DNA of 33,253 nucleotides, taken from contig JAISDC010000247.1 of assembly GCA_031265105.1 (NCBI GenBank), positions 1 through 33,253 of the forward strand, written 5' to 3'. The notes beneath the pieces are model-generated. The model did no database searches and was not told the origin of the DNA. It worked only from the letters and a program-made list of their open reading frames with translations. Source of the stretch: Verrucomicrobiales bacterium (GTDB lineage: Bacteria > Verrucomicrobiota > Verrucomicrobiia > Methylacidiphilales > JAAUTS01). A program made the position numbers and the translations under genes. This document shows positions 11,544 to 18,406 of the stretch, in pieces; position 1 is the first letter of the stretch; every line of letters begins with the position of its first letter.

Positions 11544-12865
11544 AGGAAAATTTTGTCAGCGGCCGGCGGGTGGTCGTCATGGGACTGGGGGAAAGCGGCC
11601 GGGCCGCCGCCGAACTCTTGATACAGAAAGGAGCCGAGGTGATTATACGGGACAGTTATTTGAATGAGCGCATCGACCAGATGGCGCGGCAGTTGCAACT
11701 GCGCGGCGCGCGCGTGGAAACCCAGCCGGCGGGCTTCACGCCCTGCCGCTTCGACCTGGGCGTGCTGTCGCCCGGCATTGATCCACAGGTGCCGCTGGTG
11801 CGGCAACTGCGGCGCGAGCGCGTGCCCGTGGTCGGCGAGGTCGAGCTGGCCGCCCGTTTCTGCGACACGCCGGTCGTGGCGGTCACCGGCACCAACGGCA
11901 AAAGCACCACCACCGAGCTGGTGGCGGCGGCGCTGACCGCGGGCGGCTTGCGCACCACGGCCTGCGGCAACCTCGGCGTGCCGTTCAGCGACGTGGTGCG
12001 CGGCGGGGATTTTTACAATGTCATCACGCTGGAGGTGAGTTCGTTCCAACTGGAAACCATCGAGCGCTTCCGCCCGCGGGTGGCGGTGTATCTGAATTTC
12101 ACGCCCGACCATCTGGACCGTTACCCGACGCTGGCAGCGTATCGCCAGGCGAAAATTCGCATTTTCATGAACCAGACGGCGGAGGATTTTGCGGTGGTGA
12201 ATCCCGCTTGCGAGTTGCCGGCGCTGGCGGCGAAGAAAATCACCATCAGCGTTGATCATGATGACGCGGACTACACCTTCCGTGACGGGACGCTGTACGC
12301 GGGCCGGCAACCGGTTCTGGCGCAGGAATCAACCAACCTCCGCGGCCCGCACAACGCGGAAAACCAACTGGCGGCGCTGGCGGTGGCGGATCTTTACGGC
12401 GTGGCGCGGCCGGACGCGATCGCGGCGTTGCGCGCCTACCGCGCGCTGCCGCATCGTTGCGAGCCGGTGCGCGAACTGGACGGAGTGACTTACATCAACG
12501 ACTCCAAGGCCACCAATCTTGACGCGCTGGAAAAGGCGCTGGCCGGGCAGACCCGTCCGGTGGTGCTGATTGCGGGCGGCAAGGACAAAGGCTTTGATTT
12601 CGCGCCACTCAAGGCGCTGATGGTGAAAAAAGCCAGGGCGGTGGTCGCCATCGGCGAGGTGCAAAACCAACTGGTGCGGGCGTGGGGCCAGCATGTGCCT
12701 TGCCATCGCGCGGCGGATTTTGCCGAGGCGGTCAGCCTGGGCCGCCGCCTGGCGAAGCCGGGGGACACGGTGCTGCTGTCGCCGGGCTGCTCCAGCTACG
12801 ACATGTTCAAGAATTTTGCGGACCGGGGACAGCAATTCAAGGAACTGGTCGCCAAATTGTCCTGA
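11540..12865 (+). CDS. murD: UDP-MurNAc-L-Ala:D-Glu ligase MurD
   Basis: VAVTGTNGKSTTTELVAAAL, EVSSFQLETIERFRPRVAVYLNFTPDHLDRY, INDSKATNLDALEKAL, LLSPGCSSYDMFKNFADRGQQFKELV. Start at the ATG at 11540 (ATGA overlap). Confidence 0.96.
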   Translation: MKENFVSGRRVVVMGLGESGRAAAELLIQKGAEVIIRDSYLNERIDQMARQLQLRGARVETQPAGFTPCRFDLGVLSPGIDPQVPLVRQLRRERVPVVGEVELAARFCDTPVVAVTGTNGKSTTTELVAAALTAGGLRTTACGNLGVPFSDVVRGGDFYNVITLEVSSFQLETIERFRPRVAVYLNFTPDHLDRYPTLAAYRQAKIRIFMNQTAEDFAVVNPACELPALAAKKITISVDHDDADYTFRDGTLYAGRQPVLAQESTNLRGPHNAENQLAALAVADLYGVARPDAIAALRAYRALPHRCEPVRELDGVTYINDSKATNLDALEKALAGQTRPVVLIAGGKDKGFDFAPLKALMVKKARAVVAIGEVQNQLVRAWGQHVPCHRAADFAEAVSLGRRLAKPGDTVLLSPGCSSYDMFKNFADRGQQFKELVAKLS

Positions 12866-12897
12866 AAACAACATCAAACCGATAAGGAGAACATACC

Positions 12898-13767
12898 ATG
12901 AATGAGGAAATGAATGAGCAAAACGCAAAGACCCTGGCCAGCCCGAAGTTGTCCAGGATGGCATTAATCGTGGTGCTGGGAGTGCATGTGCTGGCGATTA
13001 CCGGCTTCATCGTTTATAGCCTGTTGAAGGGGAATGTCAGCGGCAAGGACCATGCCGAAATGATCGCCGGCCCGGAGGATAGCGGCGAGACCGCGACCGT
13101 TGCCGCCGGCGGCAGCCAGCCGACCATTGAAACCAATGCCGGTGAAGCCAATGTCAGCGCCCCGATGGCGGCGGACCTGACCGTGTCCGCGACCGCGGCG
13201 CCGGTAACGCCGATGCCCGGCCCGCAGGAGCCGATTTGGCATCCGACCACCGGCGGCCCGTCGGTCCCCGCGCCCGCGCCGGCTCCGGTGACGGCAAACG
13301 CCGGCGTTGTCTATACGGTGCAAAAGGGGGATTCGTTATATAAAATCGCCCGCCAGAGCGGGATCACCGTGGCGGAACTGAAGCAGGCCAACGGGCTGGT
13401 CTCCGACGCGCTGCAACCCGGCCAGACGCTGAATCTGCCGGCCGCGCTGACGGTGCCCGCCGGCGGTCAAGTCGCGTCAGCGTCGGCGCAGTCCGCGGCG
13501 CGCGCCGTCGCGACTGGCAGCGCCGCGGCGTCGTTCCAGAGCTACAAGGTGGCGCCGGGTGACACGTTGTGGAAAATCGCCCGTCAGTTCAACACCAAAC
13601 CCGACGTAATTGCCAGGGCCAACAACATCAGCGACCCGTCGAAATTGAAAGTCGGCATGGAAATCAAGGTGCCGGTGCCGGCCCGCGAGACCGCGCAACC
13701 GGCGGCGCAACCGCAGGCGGCGGTGCCCGACGTGGACGTGGCGGCGCTGCCGCATATCCGGAGTTAA
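12898..13767 (+). CDS. Bitopic protein with two LysM domains inside the dcw cluster
   Basis: N-terminal TM (ALIVVLGVHVLAITGFIVYSLL); Pro/Ala linker; LysM VYTVQKGDSLYKIARQSGITVAELKQANGL and YKVAPGDTLWKIARQFNTKPDVIARANNI; aaggag RBS upstream. Confidence 0.88.
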   Translation: MNEEMNEQNAKTLASPKLSRMALIVVLGVHVLAITGFIVYSLLKGNVSGKDHAEMIAGPEDSGETATVAAGGSQPTIETNAGEANVSAPMAADLTVSATAAPVTPMPGPQEPIWHPTTGGPSVPAPAPAPVTANAGVVYTVQKGDSLYKIARQSGITVAELKQANGLVSDALQPGQTLNLPAALTVPAGGQVASASAQSAARAVATGSAAASFQSYKVAPGDTLWKIARQFNTKPDVIARANNISDPSKLKVGMEIKVPVPARETAQPAAQPQAAVPDVDVAALPHIRS

Positions 13768-13772
13768 ACCGC

Positions 13773-14915
13773 ATGGGCAAATTCAGCGCCATTATTCTGC
13801 TGGGAGCGGTGTCGGCCCTCGTCGCCATCGGCTTCGTGATTCTGACCAGTGTCAGCGCCTTCGCTCCCGCGAACAATGGTAACGCCTATTACTTTGTTAT
13901 CCGCCAGGCGATTTTCCTGGGCGCGGGCGCGGGCGTTTGCTGGCTGGCCGCCAAGTGGGATTATCACCAGTGGAGCCGGTTTTCCCCGGCGCTGCTGGTG
14001 CTCGGGCTGGCGCTGATGGCGGCGTGTTTTTTGCCGCATTTCGGCGTGCGCGTCAATGGCGCCAACCGCTGGATCAACCTGGGCTTCATCCGGGCGCAAC
14101 CGGTGGAGCTGGCCAAGTTCGGGTTGATGGCCAGCCTGGCCTGGTGGCTGGGGACGCGCGCCGGCCAGTTGAAAAATTTCCGGGTCGGCGTGCTGGCGCC
14201 GCTGGGCATGTTGGTGGCGCTGGCGGTGCTGTGCCAGTGGCAGGATGATATCGGCAGCGCGGCGCTGATGCTGCTGGTGGCGCTGGGGCTGATGTTTGTC
14301 GCCGGCACCAGGCAACGTTACCTGGTCGTGATCCTGGCGCTGGGGGTTGGCGCCATTGGCTTGATGGCGTATGTCAAGCCGCAGAAATGGGCGCGGCTGA
14401 CCGCGTTTACCAACGTCGAACAACTGACCGACGGCATCAACCTGCAACCGCACAACGCGCTGATCGCCTTCGGCTCCGGCGGCATCAGCGGGCGCGGCCT
14501 CGGCCAGGGGGTGCAAAAAATGAAGTATCTGCCCGAGGCGCACACGGATTTTATCTTCCCGAACATCGGCGAGGAACTGGGCGTGATTGCCACGCTGCTG
14601 GTGGTGCTGGCCTTTCTGTTGCTGGTGCTGGCGGGCTGGGAAATCGCCTGCCATGCGCCGGATCAGACCGGTTTGCTGCTGGGGCTTGGCGCCACCTCGC
14701 TGATCGGTTTGCAGGGGCTGATGAACATGGCGGTGGTGACGGCGCTGATGCCGACCAAGGGCATCGGCCTGCCGTTTATCAGCTATGGAGGCTCCAATCT
14801 GTTGTTATGCTTTTTGCTGGTCGGGATTTTGTTGAACATTCATTTTCAGGCGATTTACGAACCGCGCAAGCGCCGGCCGGCCAGTCTGCCGGCTGCCATG
14901 ACGGCGCGGATGTAG
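13773..14915 (+). CDS. ftsW: SEDS-family glycosyltransferase FtsW
   Basis: NGANRWINLGFIRAQPVELAKFGLM, FGSGGISGRGLGQGVQKMKYLPEAHTDFIFPNIGEELG, PTKGIGLPFISYGGSNL. Confidence 0.95.
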   Translation: MGKFSAIILLGAVSALVAIGFVILTSVSAFAPANNGNAYYFVIRQAIFLGAGAGVCWLAAKWDYHQWSRFSPALLVLGLALMAACFLPHFGVRVNGANRWINLGFIRAQPVELAKFGLMASLAWWLGTRAGQLKNFRVGVLAPLGMLVALAVLCQWQDDIGSAALMLLVALGLMFVAGTRQRYLVVILALGVGAIGLMAYVKPQKWARLTAFTNVEQLTDGINLQPHNALIAFGSGGISGRGLGQGVQKMKYLPEAHTDFIFPNIGEELGVIATLLVVLAFLLLVLAGWEIACHAPDQTGLLLGLGATSLIGLQGLMNMAVVTALMPTKGIGLPFISYGGSNLLLCFLLVGILLNIHFQAIYEPRKRRPASLPAAMTARM

Positions 14916-14924
14916 GGACTGGTT

Positions 14925-16034
14925 ATGGCGAACATCGGCATAGCATGCGGGGGCACCGGGGGGCATCTTTATCCCGGACTGGCGGTGGCGGAGGCGCTGA
15001 CGGCGCGGGGCCATGCCGTCCGGTTGTATGTTTCCGCCAAGGACCTTGACCGCGCGGTGCTGGCCGATTACCCGGCCTTCGACAGTGTGACGCTGCCGGT
15101 CATCGGCTGGCCGGGCCTTGGTCCGCGGCTGCTGAAGTTCGCGCTGAACTTCTGGTCGGCCTGCCGTCTGGCCGGGCGCGAGACGCGCCAGCAGCAACTC
15201 GACGCGGTGCTGGGCATGGGCGGGTTTACCTCCGCGCCGCTCATCGTCAGCGCTACGCGGCGGGGGGTGCCGACGTTGCTGCACGAGTCCAACGCCATCC
15301 CCGGCAAAGTGACCCGGCTGCTGGCCAAGCGAGTGGACTCGGTGCTGGTCGGGTTCAACGAATGCGCCAGACAGTTGCCGAACGTCAACACCAGGTACAC
15401 CGGCACGCCGGTGCGTCGCACGCTGCATAAGCTGGCGCGAGAACAGGCGGCGAAGTTTTGGGGGTTGGCGGCGACGCCGTTCACCGTGGCCGTCATCGGC
15501 GGCAGCCAGGGGGCACGGGGGCTGAACCGGCTGGTGATTCAGGCGATGGTGGACTGGCAGCCGCTGAAAAATGACCTGCAATTCATCCACCTGGCCGGGC
15601 CACAGGAAAGCGATTTATTAGTAGCCAATTATCAGCGCAACGGGTTGCGCGCCGCGGTGCGGCCGTATTGCCGCGCGATGGAAAATTTGTACAGCCTGGC
15701 CGATTTGGTGATTGCCCGCGCGGGGGCGGCGTCGCTGACCGAAATCAGTTATTTCGGTTTGCCGTCGATGCTGGTGCCGTATCCCGCCGCCGCTGAGGAT
15801 CACCAGACCCGCAACGCGCAAATTTTTGTCAAGGCCGGCGCGGCGCTGCTGGTGCCGGAAGGCAAGCGCGCCGCGCCGCAGTTGGCGCGCGCGGTGTCGG
15901 ATTTGCTGGCCGACCGCGACCGGCTGGCGCGCATGTCCGCCGCCGCGACGGCGCTGAGCGTGCGCGACGCGGCGCGGCGCGTGGCCGAGGAAGTGCAACG
16001 GGTTTTGCCCGCGACTGACGGAGGGAGCGCGTGA
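14925..16034 (+). CDS. murG: UDP-GlcNAc:undecaprenyl-PP-MurNAc-pentapeptide transferase MurG
   Basis: IACGGTGGHLYPGLAVAEAL, GMGGFTSAPLIVSAT, HESNAIPGKVTRLLA, VIGGSQGARGLNRLV, RAGAASLTEISYFGLPSMLVPYPAAAEDHQTRNA. Confidence 0.95.
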   Translation: MANIGIACGGTGGHLYPGLAVAEALTARGHAVRLYVSAKDLDRAVLADYPAFDSVTLPVIGWPGLGPRLLKFALNFWSACRLAGRETRQQQLDAVLGMGGFTSAPLIVSATRRGVPTLLHESNAIPGKVTRLLAKRVDSVLVGFNECARQLPNVNTRYTGTPVRRTLHKLAREQAAKFWGLAATPFTVAVIGGSQGARGLNRLVIQAMVDWQPLKNDLQFIHLAGPQESDLLVANYQRNGLRAAVRPYCRAMENLYSLADLVIARAGAASLTEISYFGLPSMLVPYPAAAEDHQTRNAQIFVKAGAALLVPEGKRAAPQLARAVSDLLADRDRLARMSAAATALSVRDAARRVAEEVQRVLPATDGGSA

Positions 16035-18406
16035 ACCCCGACCGGCAAATCGACATGGCCGCGGCTTTATTGCACCAGCGCGGCGCGCGCGTCCACCTCG
16101 TCGCGGTCAGCGGCAGCGGCATGATCGGCCTGGCCAAATTGCTGCTCGACGCCGGCCTCACCGTCAGCGGCTCGGACTTGCAGCGCGGGAAACAAATCGC
16201 CGCGCTGGAACAACTCGGCTTGAAATTTTATCAGGGCCACGCCGCGCGGCAGGTGGACGGCGCGACGTTGCTGGGTTATTCGTCGGCGATTGGCGCTGAC
16301 AATGTCGAGCGCCGGGCCGCCGCTGACGGTGGCATCCCGCAATTCCGGCGCGCGGAAATTCTCGCGGCGCTGGCGCGGCGCCAGCGGCTGCTGACTGTCA
16401 GCGGCACGCATGGCAAGACGACGACGACGCTGATGCTCACGCGCATTTTCCAGGCGGCGGGGCGCGACCCCGGTTTTTACATCGGCGCGGACGTGCCGGA
16501 TTTCGAGTTCAGCGCGGGATTGGGCGCCGCTGACGGCGACCTGATTATCGAGGCCGACGAGAGCGACGGGACGCTGGCCTGTTACGCGCCCGCCGCCGTG
16601 CTGGTGCTGAATATCGAGCCGGACCATCTCGACCACTACGCTGATCTTGCACACATCAAGACGGCATTCCTCGCGCTGGCGCGGAAGTCCGGGACCCCGC
16701 CGGTGCTGTGCGCTGACGATGAATGTTGCCGCGAGTTGGCGCAACAGTTGCCGCTGGCGGTGACTTACGCGCTAGGGTACGACGCGGAATTTCGCGCGGC
16801 CAACCTCACGGTCAGCGCCGGCGCCTCGTCGTTCGACGTGACGCGGCGCGGCGCGACGCTGGGCGCGCTGACAGTGAACCTGCCGGGCCGACACAACGCT
16901 AGCAACGCGCTCGGCGCGGTGGCGCTGGCGCTGACCGCGGGCGTGCCGTTCGCCGACTGTCAGCGGGCGCTGGCCGCGATGCGCGGCGCGGCGCGGCGGT
17001 TTGAAATTTTGCACCGCGACGAAGATTATCTCGTGGTGGACGATTACGCCCATCATCCGTCGGAAATCCGCGCCACCCTGGCGGCGGCGAAAGATTGCGG
17101 CGCCCGGCGCGTGCTGGCGACGTTCCAGCCGCACCGGTACTCGCGCTCGTTGCATTTGCAACACGAGTTCGCCGGCGCGTTCGCTGACGCTGACCGCGTG
17201 TTCATCACCGACATTTACAGCGCGGGCGAGCCGCCGATTGACGGCGTGACGGGAGCGGCGTTCGCCGCCACGGTTGGCGAGCACGTGACTTACGCGCCGA
17301 CGCTGGACGATTTGCAGACGGCGCTGGCGCTGACGTTGCAGCCTGGCGATTGCGTGCTGACGATGGGCGCGGGCGATATTTGCAAAGTCAGTGTCAGCGT
17401 GGCGCGCGACTTGTGGATGTTTCGCCGGCTCCAGCAATTACTGACACCGTCGCCCCGTCATCCTGAGCGAAGCAACGAAGTTGCGCAGTCGAAGGATCGC
17501 GTTGACCCATCGAACGCTGACAGTGAGTTGCAAGCGTCTGGCGGGTCGGTGGTGAAATTGTACGAGCCGCTGAGTCGGCACACCACGCTGCGGGTGGGCG
17601 GGCCGGCGCAGTTCTGGGTTGAACCCGCTGACGATGAGGCGCTGCGGCGCGTGGCGGATTTTTGTCGCGCGCAAAACCTGCCGCTGACGGTCATCGGGCG
17701 CGGCTCGAATTTGCTGGTGCGCGACCACGGCATGCGCGGCGTGTGCGTTCATCTCGGCGCGCCGGCGTTTGGCGCAATCACCGTCAGCGGCGCTGAAATC
17801 AAGGCCGGGGCCGGCGCGCGCCTGCGCGACCTCGTCCACGCGGCGAAACGCGCGGGGTTGGGCGGGCTGGAATTTCTGGAGGGCATTCCGGGCAATCTCG
17901 GCGGGGCGCTGCGGATGAACGCCGGCGCGTTCGGCGGCGCGCTCGGCGAGGTCATCGTCAGCGTCCGCGCGCTGGCGCCCGACGGCAAAATCCTGGAACT
18001 TCCGCGCGCGGCGCTGACGATGAATTATCGCGACACGCCGCTGTTCGCCGACCATATCGCGCTCGGCGCGACCCTGCGCGGCGCTGCCGGTGACGCCGCC
18101 GCCATCGGCGCGAAACTCGACGACTTCCGGGCGCAACGCCACGCCGCGCAGCCGAAGCAGCCGAGCGCGGGCAGCACGTTCCAAAACCCGCCGGCACTGT
18201 CAGCGGGGCGGTTGCTGGAGGAACTCGGCTTGAAGGGAAAAAAAATCGGCGGCGCGCAATTTTCGGCTGTACATGCCAATTTTATTATCAATGATGGGAG
18301 CGCGACGGCCACGGACGCGCTGGCGTTGATTGAACTGGCGCGGCGCGCGGCGCGGGAGCGGCGCGGCGTGGAGTTGGAACTGGAAGTGAAGGTGCTGGGT
18401 GACTGA
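16031..18406 (+). CDS. murC-murB: Bifunctional MurC-MurB fusion (UDP-MurNAc:L-Ala ligase / UDP-MurNAc dehydrogenase)
   Basis: MurC half: TVSGTHGKTTTTLMLTRIF, IIEADESDGT, LNIEPDHLDHY, DDYAHHPSEI. MurB half: LSRHTTLRVGGPAQFWVEP, GRGSNLLVRD, GIPGNLGGALRMNAGAFGG, PSAGSTFQNP. Confidence 0.94.
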   Translation: MNPDRQIDMAAALLHQRGARVHLVAVSGSGMIGLAKLLLDAGLTVSGSDLQRGKQIAALEQLGLKFYQGHAARQVDGATLLGYSSAIGADNVERRAAADGGIPQFRRAEILAALARRQRLLTVSGTHGKTTTTLMLTRIFQAAGRDPGFYIGADVPDFEFSAGLGAADGDLIIEADESDGTLACYAPAAVLVLNIEPDHLDHYADLAHIKTAFLALARKSGTPPVLCADDECCRELAQQLPLAVTYALGYDAEFRAANLTVSAGASSFDVTRRGATLGALTVNLPGRHNASNALGAVALALTAGVPFADCQRALAAMRGAARRFEILHRDEDYLVVDDYAHHPSEIRATLAAAKDCGARRVLATFQPHRYSRSLHLQHEFAGAFADADRVFITDIYSAGEPPIDGVTGAAFAATVGEHVTYAPTLDDLQTALALTLQPGDCVLTMGAGDICKVSVSVARDLWMFRRLQQLLTPSPRHPERSNEVAQSKDRVDPSNADSELQASGGSVVKLYEPLSRHTTLRVGGPAQFWVEPADDEALRRVADFCRAQNLPLTVIGRGSNLLVRDHGMRGVCVHLGAPAFGAITVSGAEIKAGAGARLRDLVHAAKRAGLGGLEFLEGIPGNLGGALRMNAGAFGGALGEVIVSVRALAPDGKILELPRAALTMNYRDTPLFADHIALGATLRGAAGDAAAIGAKLDDFRAQRHAAQPKQPSAGSTFQNPPALSAGRLLEELGLKGKKIGGAQFSAVHANFIINDGSATATDALALIELARRAARERRGVELELEVKVLGD
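17457..17501. repeat. GTCATCCTGAGCGAAG...GTCGAAGGATC palindromic repeat inside the murC-murB ORF
   Basis: gtcatcctgagcgaagcaacgaagttgcgcagtcgaaggatcgcg: arms tcctgagcg.. / ..gtcgaagga with internal gcaac-gaa-gttgc hairpin; resembles a widespread intergenic repeat type. Confidence 0.7.

Follow-up and report, generated by a model that had tools for sequence, protein, structure and literature searches.

A REP-type palindromic element in frame at the seam of a MurC–MurB fusion gene in a verrucomicrobial genome

How does a repeat of a type usually found between genes come to lie inside the reading frame of a conserved enzyme? The question is raised by the murC-murB fusion gene at 16031–18406 on the plus strand of the window, by which we mean the whole stretch of 33,253 nucleotides that was analysed. 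The gene has a GTG start and encodes 791 amino acids, with a complete MurC signature at residues 21–455 (TIGR01082, 406 bits) and a complete MurB signature at residues 507–790 (NF010480, 308 bits). MurC and MurB are enzymes of peptidoglycan synthesis, essential in most bacteria, and the fused frame sits in a dcw cluster, with murE, murF, mraY, murD, ftsW and murG upstream and ddl, ftsA and ftsZ downstream. The same fusion, MurC followed by MurB, is known from another member of the Verrucomicrobia, Verrucomicrobium spinosum, as a protein of 770 residues; the difference is that the available passages of that report do not mention a repeat insert (PMC4803751).

The extra sequence lies at the seam between the two domains. 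The inserted stretch, at about 17444–17542 on the plus strand, covers codons 472–504 (33 codons, a net +31 to +32 against relatives) and is shared with only one other genome. It consists of a C-rich run like that found before many copies of the repeat, a 47-nt REP-type palindromic arm (CCCGTCATCCTGAGCGAAGCAACGAAGTTGCGCAGTCGAAGGATCGC, 17454–17500, plus strand) and a tail of about 42 nt (17501–17542, plus strand). A preliminary description of this DNA had already recognized a repeat in frame between MurC and MurB, and it had the coordinates, frame and peptide right: GTCATCCTGAGCGAAGCAACGAAGTTGCGCAGTCGAAGGATC begins at 17457, is in frame with the 791-residue ORF and is translated as PRHPERSNEVAQSKDRVD, flanked by ...DLWMFRRLQQLL and ...LYEPLSRHTTLRVGG. 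A peptide spanning the linker is, for example, HPERSNEVAQSK. The repeat is real, but the extent originally given to it, 17457–17525, has to be redrawn, since the element proper is the 47-nt arm and the whole insert is longer.

The first 16 bases of the repeat occur once in the window and, with at most one mismatch, 21 times in the genome, with 0 occurrences of the reversed pattern used as control. Copies were gathered from the genomes by pattern searches, model searches and fetched stretches, and a covariance model was built from 13 other copies, with the window copy excluded. This model finds the window copy with 69.6 bits (E 7e-19). The question of whether the repeat occurs elsewhere in its own genome (G000, a draft of 289 contigs; G001 to G006 are relatives) is answered by 40 model matches; G002 has 42, G003 has at least 150, and G001, G004, G005 and G006, four other members of the genus or family, have none. 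In the 47-nt element the tetranucleotide CGTC occupies columns 3–6, each at least 90% conserved, just before an outer ATCCT/AGGAT stem, and the layout continues with unpaired but conserved stretches, and with an inner stem of 5 bp whose loop is 3 nt long. In the window copy this inner hairpin, GCAAC-GAA-GTTGC, lies at 17472–17484 on the plus strand (alignment columns 19–31); its arms covary across copies, with the pairing preserved through changes on both sides, and in one copy an outer C-G pair is swapped to G-C. The secondary structure has 13 pairs, with 88.5% of cells paired, and its covariation score of 0.314 compares with 0.117 for shuffled alignments (0 of 500 shuffles reach it), all slid controls being far lower. 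The repeat is a dispersed short palindromic family of REP type and not a product of chance. No Rfam family matched the stretch, a search of the literature for the exact string GTCATCCTGAGCG gave no match, and the stability of a single 47-nt arm by itself is not unusual. A shorter variant that lacks the inner hairpin, of the GTCATCCTGAGCGGAGCCGAAGGATCGG type, occurs alongside the 47-nt form in the same genome, for example at loci L007, L015, L063, L066 and L076.

The anatomy of the family is best seen in G003, where 120 of the 129 sampled arms are paired with an inverted one, most commonly in a unit of 140 bp. One of these doublets, taken as single-stranded DNA, forms one hairpin of -53 kcal/mol (z -10.9), and the heptamer CGCTGAC is present in 64 of the 129 spacers, against an expectation of about 0.14 per spacer. 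The G003 doublets are REPIN-like in their anatomy. The murCB copy is by comparison a single arm, with no further covariance-model match near it. The first 30 nt or so of its tail are like the spacer of some G003 doublets, in register, and their best score was matched by 1 of 60 shuffles, which is suggestive only of homology between tail and spacers. The insert is probably a part of a REP doublet; the right arm is absent, and may have been lost or may never have arrived. G003 also stands out by number, its matches being mostly doublets of about 140 bp and numbering at least 150 against about 40 in each of the sisters G000 and G002, which suggests that the mobile unit multiplied in a burst in this one species. 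In G003 again, locus L153 (G003:C13:4300-24000) holds 27 REP-arm matches in less than 20 kb, far denser than the other sampled loci.

The tail of the insert also contains an occurrence of another kind of repeat. The preliminary description had pointed to an iterated motif following the palindrome, and CGCTGACAGTGAG is indeed located at 17515–17527; the core CGCTGACAGTGA (17515–17526, plus strand) belongs to the roughly 1,760 copies of CGCTGACNGTGA in the genome and is kept in G002 as CGCTGACGGTGA. The window holds 19 copies of CGCTGACNGTGA where 0.03 are expected (for example at 2000, 2526, 7630, 16158, 17515 and 32275), with a logo of about G.CGCTGACGGTG. Genome-wide there are 1,758, equally divided between the strands (859/899), and the reversed control gives 0. 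The motif is frequent in G002 (1,539 copies), G003 (1,107) and G004 (1,224), whereas G001 has few copies (32) and other genera of the family have practically none (at most 2). Non-palindromic, strand-balanced, restricted to the genus and present about once per 1.7 kb, it resembles a DNA uptake sequence or some other chromosome-wide signal, and it is a more unusual lead than the repeat insert itself.

Where the REP family normally resides was surveyed in part, over about 116 units (17 in G000, 17 in G002 and 82 in G003), by looking for open frames that span a unit by 50 codons on either side; no gene caller was used. By this partial open-frame survey the family is predominantly extragenic, in agreement with the preliminary description of the repeat as one usually found between genes, and among the surveyed units the murCB copy, in G000 and G002, is alone in lying within a conserved enzyme. 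Five other in-frame candidates (L125, L153, L180, L187 and L195) were set aside once their translations had been read, being gene tails, leaders, joined neighbours or low-complexity frames. At L153, a 913-residue frame (12373–15111) joins two neighbouring PEP-CTERM-type proteins via short REP copies between them, a possible case of natural read-through of an intergenic REP, such as the preliminary description pictured for murC-murB. As for what moves the repeat, Y1_Tnp genes number 4 in G000, 5 in G002 and several in G003, with none in G001. Because Y1 genes occur in G000, G002 and G003 and are lacking in the repeat-free G001, a Y1 (RAYT-like) enzyme is a plausible mover; REPs lie within 1.5 kb of the transposase at only 1 of 17 loci, so arrival of the insert by Y1 transposition is something we infer. 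G001, a member of the same genus, combines 0 REP matches and no Y1 transposase match with its 32 CGCTGACNGTGA copies.

The relative age of the fusion and of the insert can be read from the seam in other genomes. A match to the murC-murB protein was found in 59 of the 60 genomes searched, our own included, the closest named relatives being mostly Verrucomicrobia. In the 27 aligned relatives other than G002, MurC runs into MurB with essentially no linker (the comparison leaves out locus L037, where the longest frame is not murCB). G003, the next relative, reads RRRL-TGSVVKL across the seam and lacks the insert, which is confined to G000 and G002; the proteins of these two are 92% identical. The linker peptide, whose possible conservation in distant fusions the preliminary description had raised, is absent from the other aligned MurC–MurB fusions. 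As judged from these alignments, the fusion is order-wide and old and the repeat is younger. Since the seams elsewhere are linker-free and the insert is present in G000 and G002 only, the insertion falls on the branch to these two genomes. Neither a target-site duplication nor the exact empty site can be read at this locus, because even G003, the closest relative without a linker, is no more than about 74% identical.

Taken together, these observations are very probably to be explained by the insertion of a REP, in frame, into the MurC–MurB junction after the two genes had fused, where it would be tolerated and translated as a disordered linker. The element would have been a REP-type unit, probably one arm and part of the spacer of an inverted doublet of about 140 bp (REPIN-like), and it would have entered the MurC/MurB seam in the common ancestor of G000 and G002. 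Because it is free of stops when read in this frame and landed where a flexible stretch joins two independent domains, the enzyme could have tolerated it, and the translated insert would form a linker of some 31–33 residues, possibly a functionally neutral one. In an AlphaFold prediction made with 20 relatives (mean pLDDT 87.6), both enzyme domains are confident and the sole segment below a pLDDT of 50 is residues 474–503, a low value partly to be anticipated in a region for which the alignment offers no homologues; the linker of 31–33 residues is predicted to be disordered. This reading is one of the two origins offered in the preliminary description, that of a protein-tolerated insertion like the Rickettsia palindromic elements, and it is supported, since the repeat is dispersed, extragenic by habit, in frame, open in two species and of predicted disorder.

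The other origin offered there, a relic of a former murC/murB intergenic region that was captured when the two genes fused, draws on the normally extragenic home of the repeat and on the open frame in G003 in which a short copy joins two adjacent PEP-CTERM-type genes, showing that such read-through can exist. It fails on the near-zero linker of the order-wide fusion and on the confinement of the insert to two sister species, the closest genome being the only other one to carry it; there is neither support nor need for an unfused ancestor with a repeat between its genes, and we regard the relic as highly improbable. A still slighter chance attaches to an assembly artefact in which a repeat was misjoined into murCB. 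Repeats are a cause of misassembly and this draft is split into 289 contigs. Against an artefact, G002, which is a separate assembly, carries the insert at the same codon, its frame open and 13 of its codons different. A third possibility would be that the frame yields two products, with MurB re-initiated past the insert, from GTG 17549/17552 for example, and the repeat acting as a leader element between them. GTG and TTG codons do follow the repeat, and in the available passages on the V. spinosum fusion its MurB activity could not be demonstrated in vitro (PMC4803751). The same passages, however, describe that fusion as uncleaved and as complementing both murB and murC mutants, no stop between the domains was seen in relatives, and RNA folding of the 101-nt context of the repeat is not unusual (z +0.85), all of which makes re-initiation very unlikely.

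Somewhat more can be said for the idea of co-option, in which selection would now maintain the REP-encoded peptide as a functional MurC–MurB spacer. Between G000 and G002 the insert has 13 codon differences, 9 of them residue-changing, with frame and length unchanged. In codons 475–492, 4 of the 5 differences are synonymous, while the hairpin of the G002 DNA decays: that copy has lost hairpin pairs and scores 48.6 bits, with its frame still open. For codons 476–490, a Fisher test gives p of about 0.006, on approximate site counts and with boundaries set post hoc. These are, however, just five substitutions from one species pair, elsewhere in the insert the codon changes are 8 non-synonymous and 0 synonymous, and the linker is absent from all other relatives. 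Taken whole, the insert has changed more at the amino-acid level than any other part of the gene, equalled by 0 of 231 other 33-codon windows, and its dN/dS is 0.69, against 0.28 for MurC and 0.21 for MurB, figures that speak for tolerance of the inserted residues. Co-option is accordingly unlikely. The CGCTGACNGTGA bases in the tail are preserved between G000 and G002, with a single change, at N, and one might picture a 99-bp insert under two constraints, selection acting on the translated REP core while the palindrome decays and CGCTGACNGTGA being kept for DNA-level reasons; this too we consider a doubtful proposition.

In-frame insertion of a tolerated REP, the reading we prefer, has precedents. 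REPs inside ORFs, encoding about 20–30 residues, have been published for many bacteria, the largest number of GTAG-type intragenic cases being in Opitutus terrae, also of the Verrucomicrobia, and the largest number of CGTC-type cases in Rickettsia conorii (PMC3733652). The GTAG and CGTC elements of that study (BMC Genomics 2013, PMC3733652) are, like the present one, short, palindromic, mainly intergenic, sometimes contained whole in ORFs, and found as inverted dimers; what differs here is the target, a MurC–MurB seam. The CGTC next to the stem is a further point of likeness, but the CGTC REPs have one stem of 8–9 bp with a loop of 4–5 nt and end in CCA at the 3′ side, whereas the present element has outer and inner stems of 5 bp each, separated by conserved unpaired stretches, and ends in CGG (PMC3733652). 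Because the single 8–9-bp stem is absent in spite of the CGTC, we have not filed the element under the CGTC families. With the REPINs it shares inverted doublets of near-fixed length that form one long hairpin, high copy number, a mainly extragenic location and compensatory changes, but the murCB copy is single-armed and a nearby Y1 transposase gene was seen at only 1 of 17 loci (PMC3116915). The Rickettsia palindromic elements RPE-1, RPE-4 and RPE-6 (described in PMC3733652) are likewise translated in frame in housekeeping genes and tolerated by the protein. They occupy many genes, compared with one confirmed in-gene copy here, and the likeness is one of pattern, with no membership claimed.

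The phenomenon of in-frame REPs in genes is therefore already known, and it is the murCB case that is new and well polarised. In it, the linker-free fusion as it was before insertion, the branch on which the insertion happened and the early decay of the palindrome are visible together. A repeat found between fused domains is not necessarily a leftover of the gene fusion, and it is the comparison of relatives that decides. There is published evidence already that protein segments in Verrucomicrobia can come from REP-type elements, and this case adds to it.
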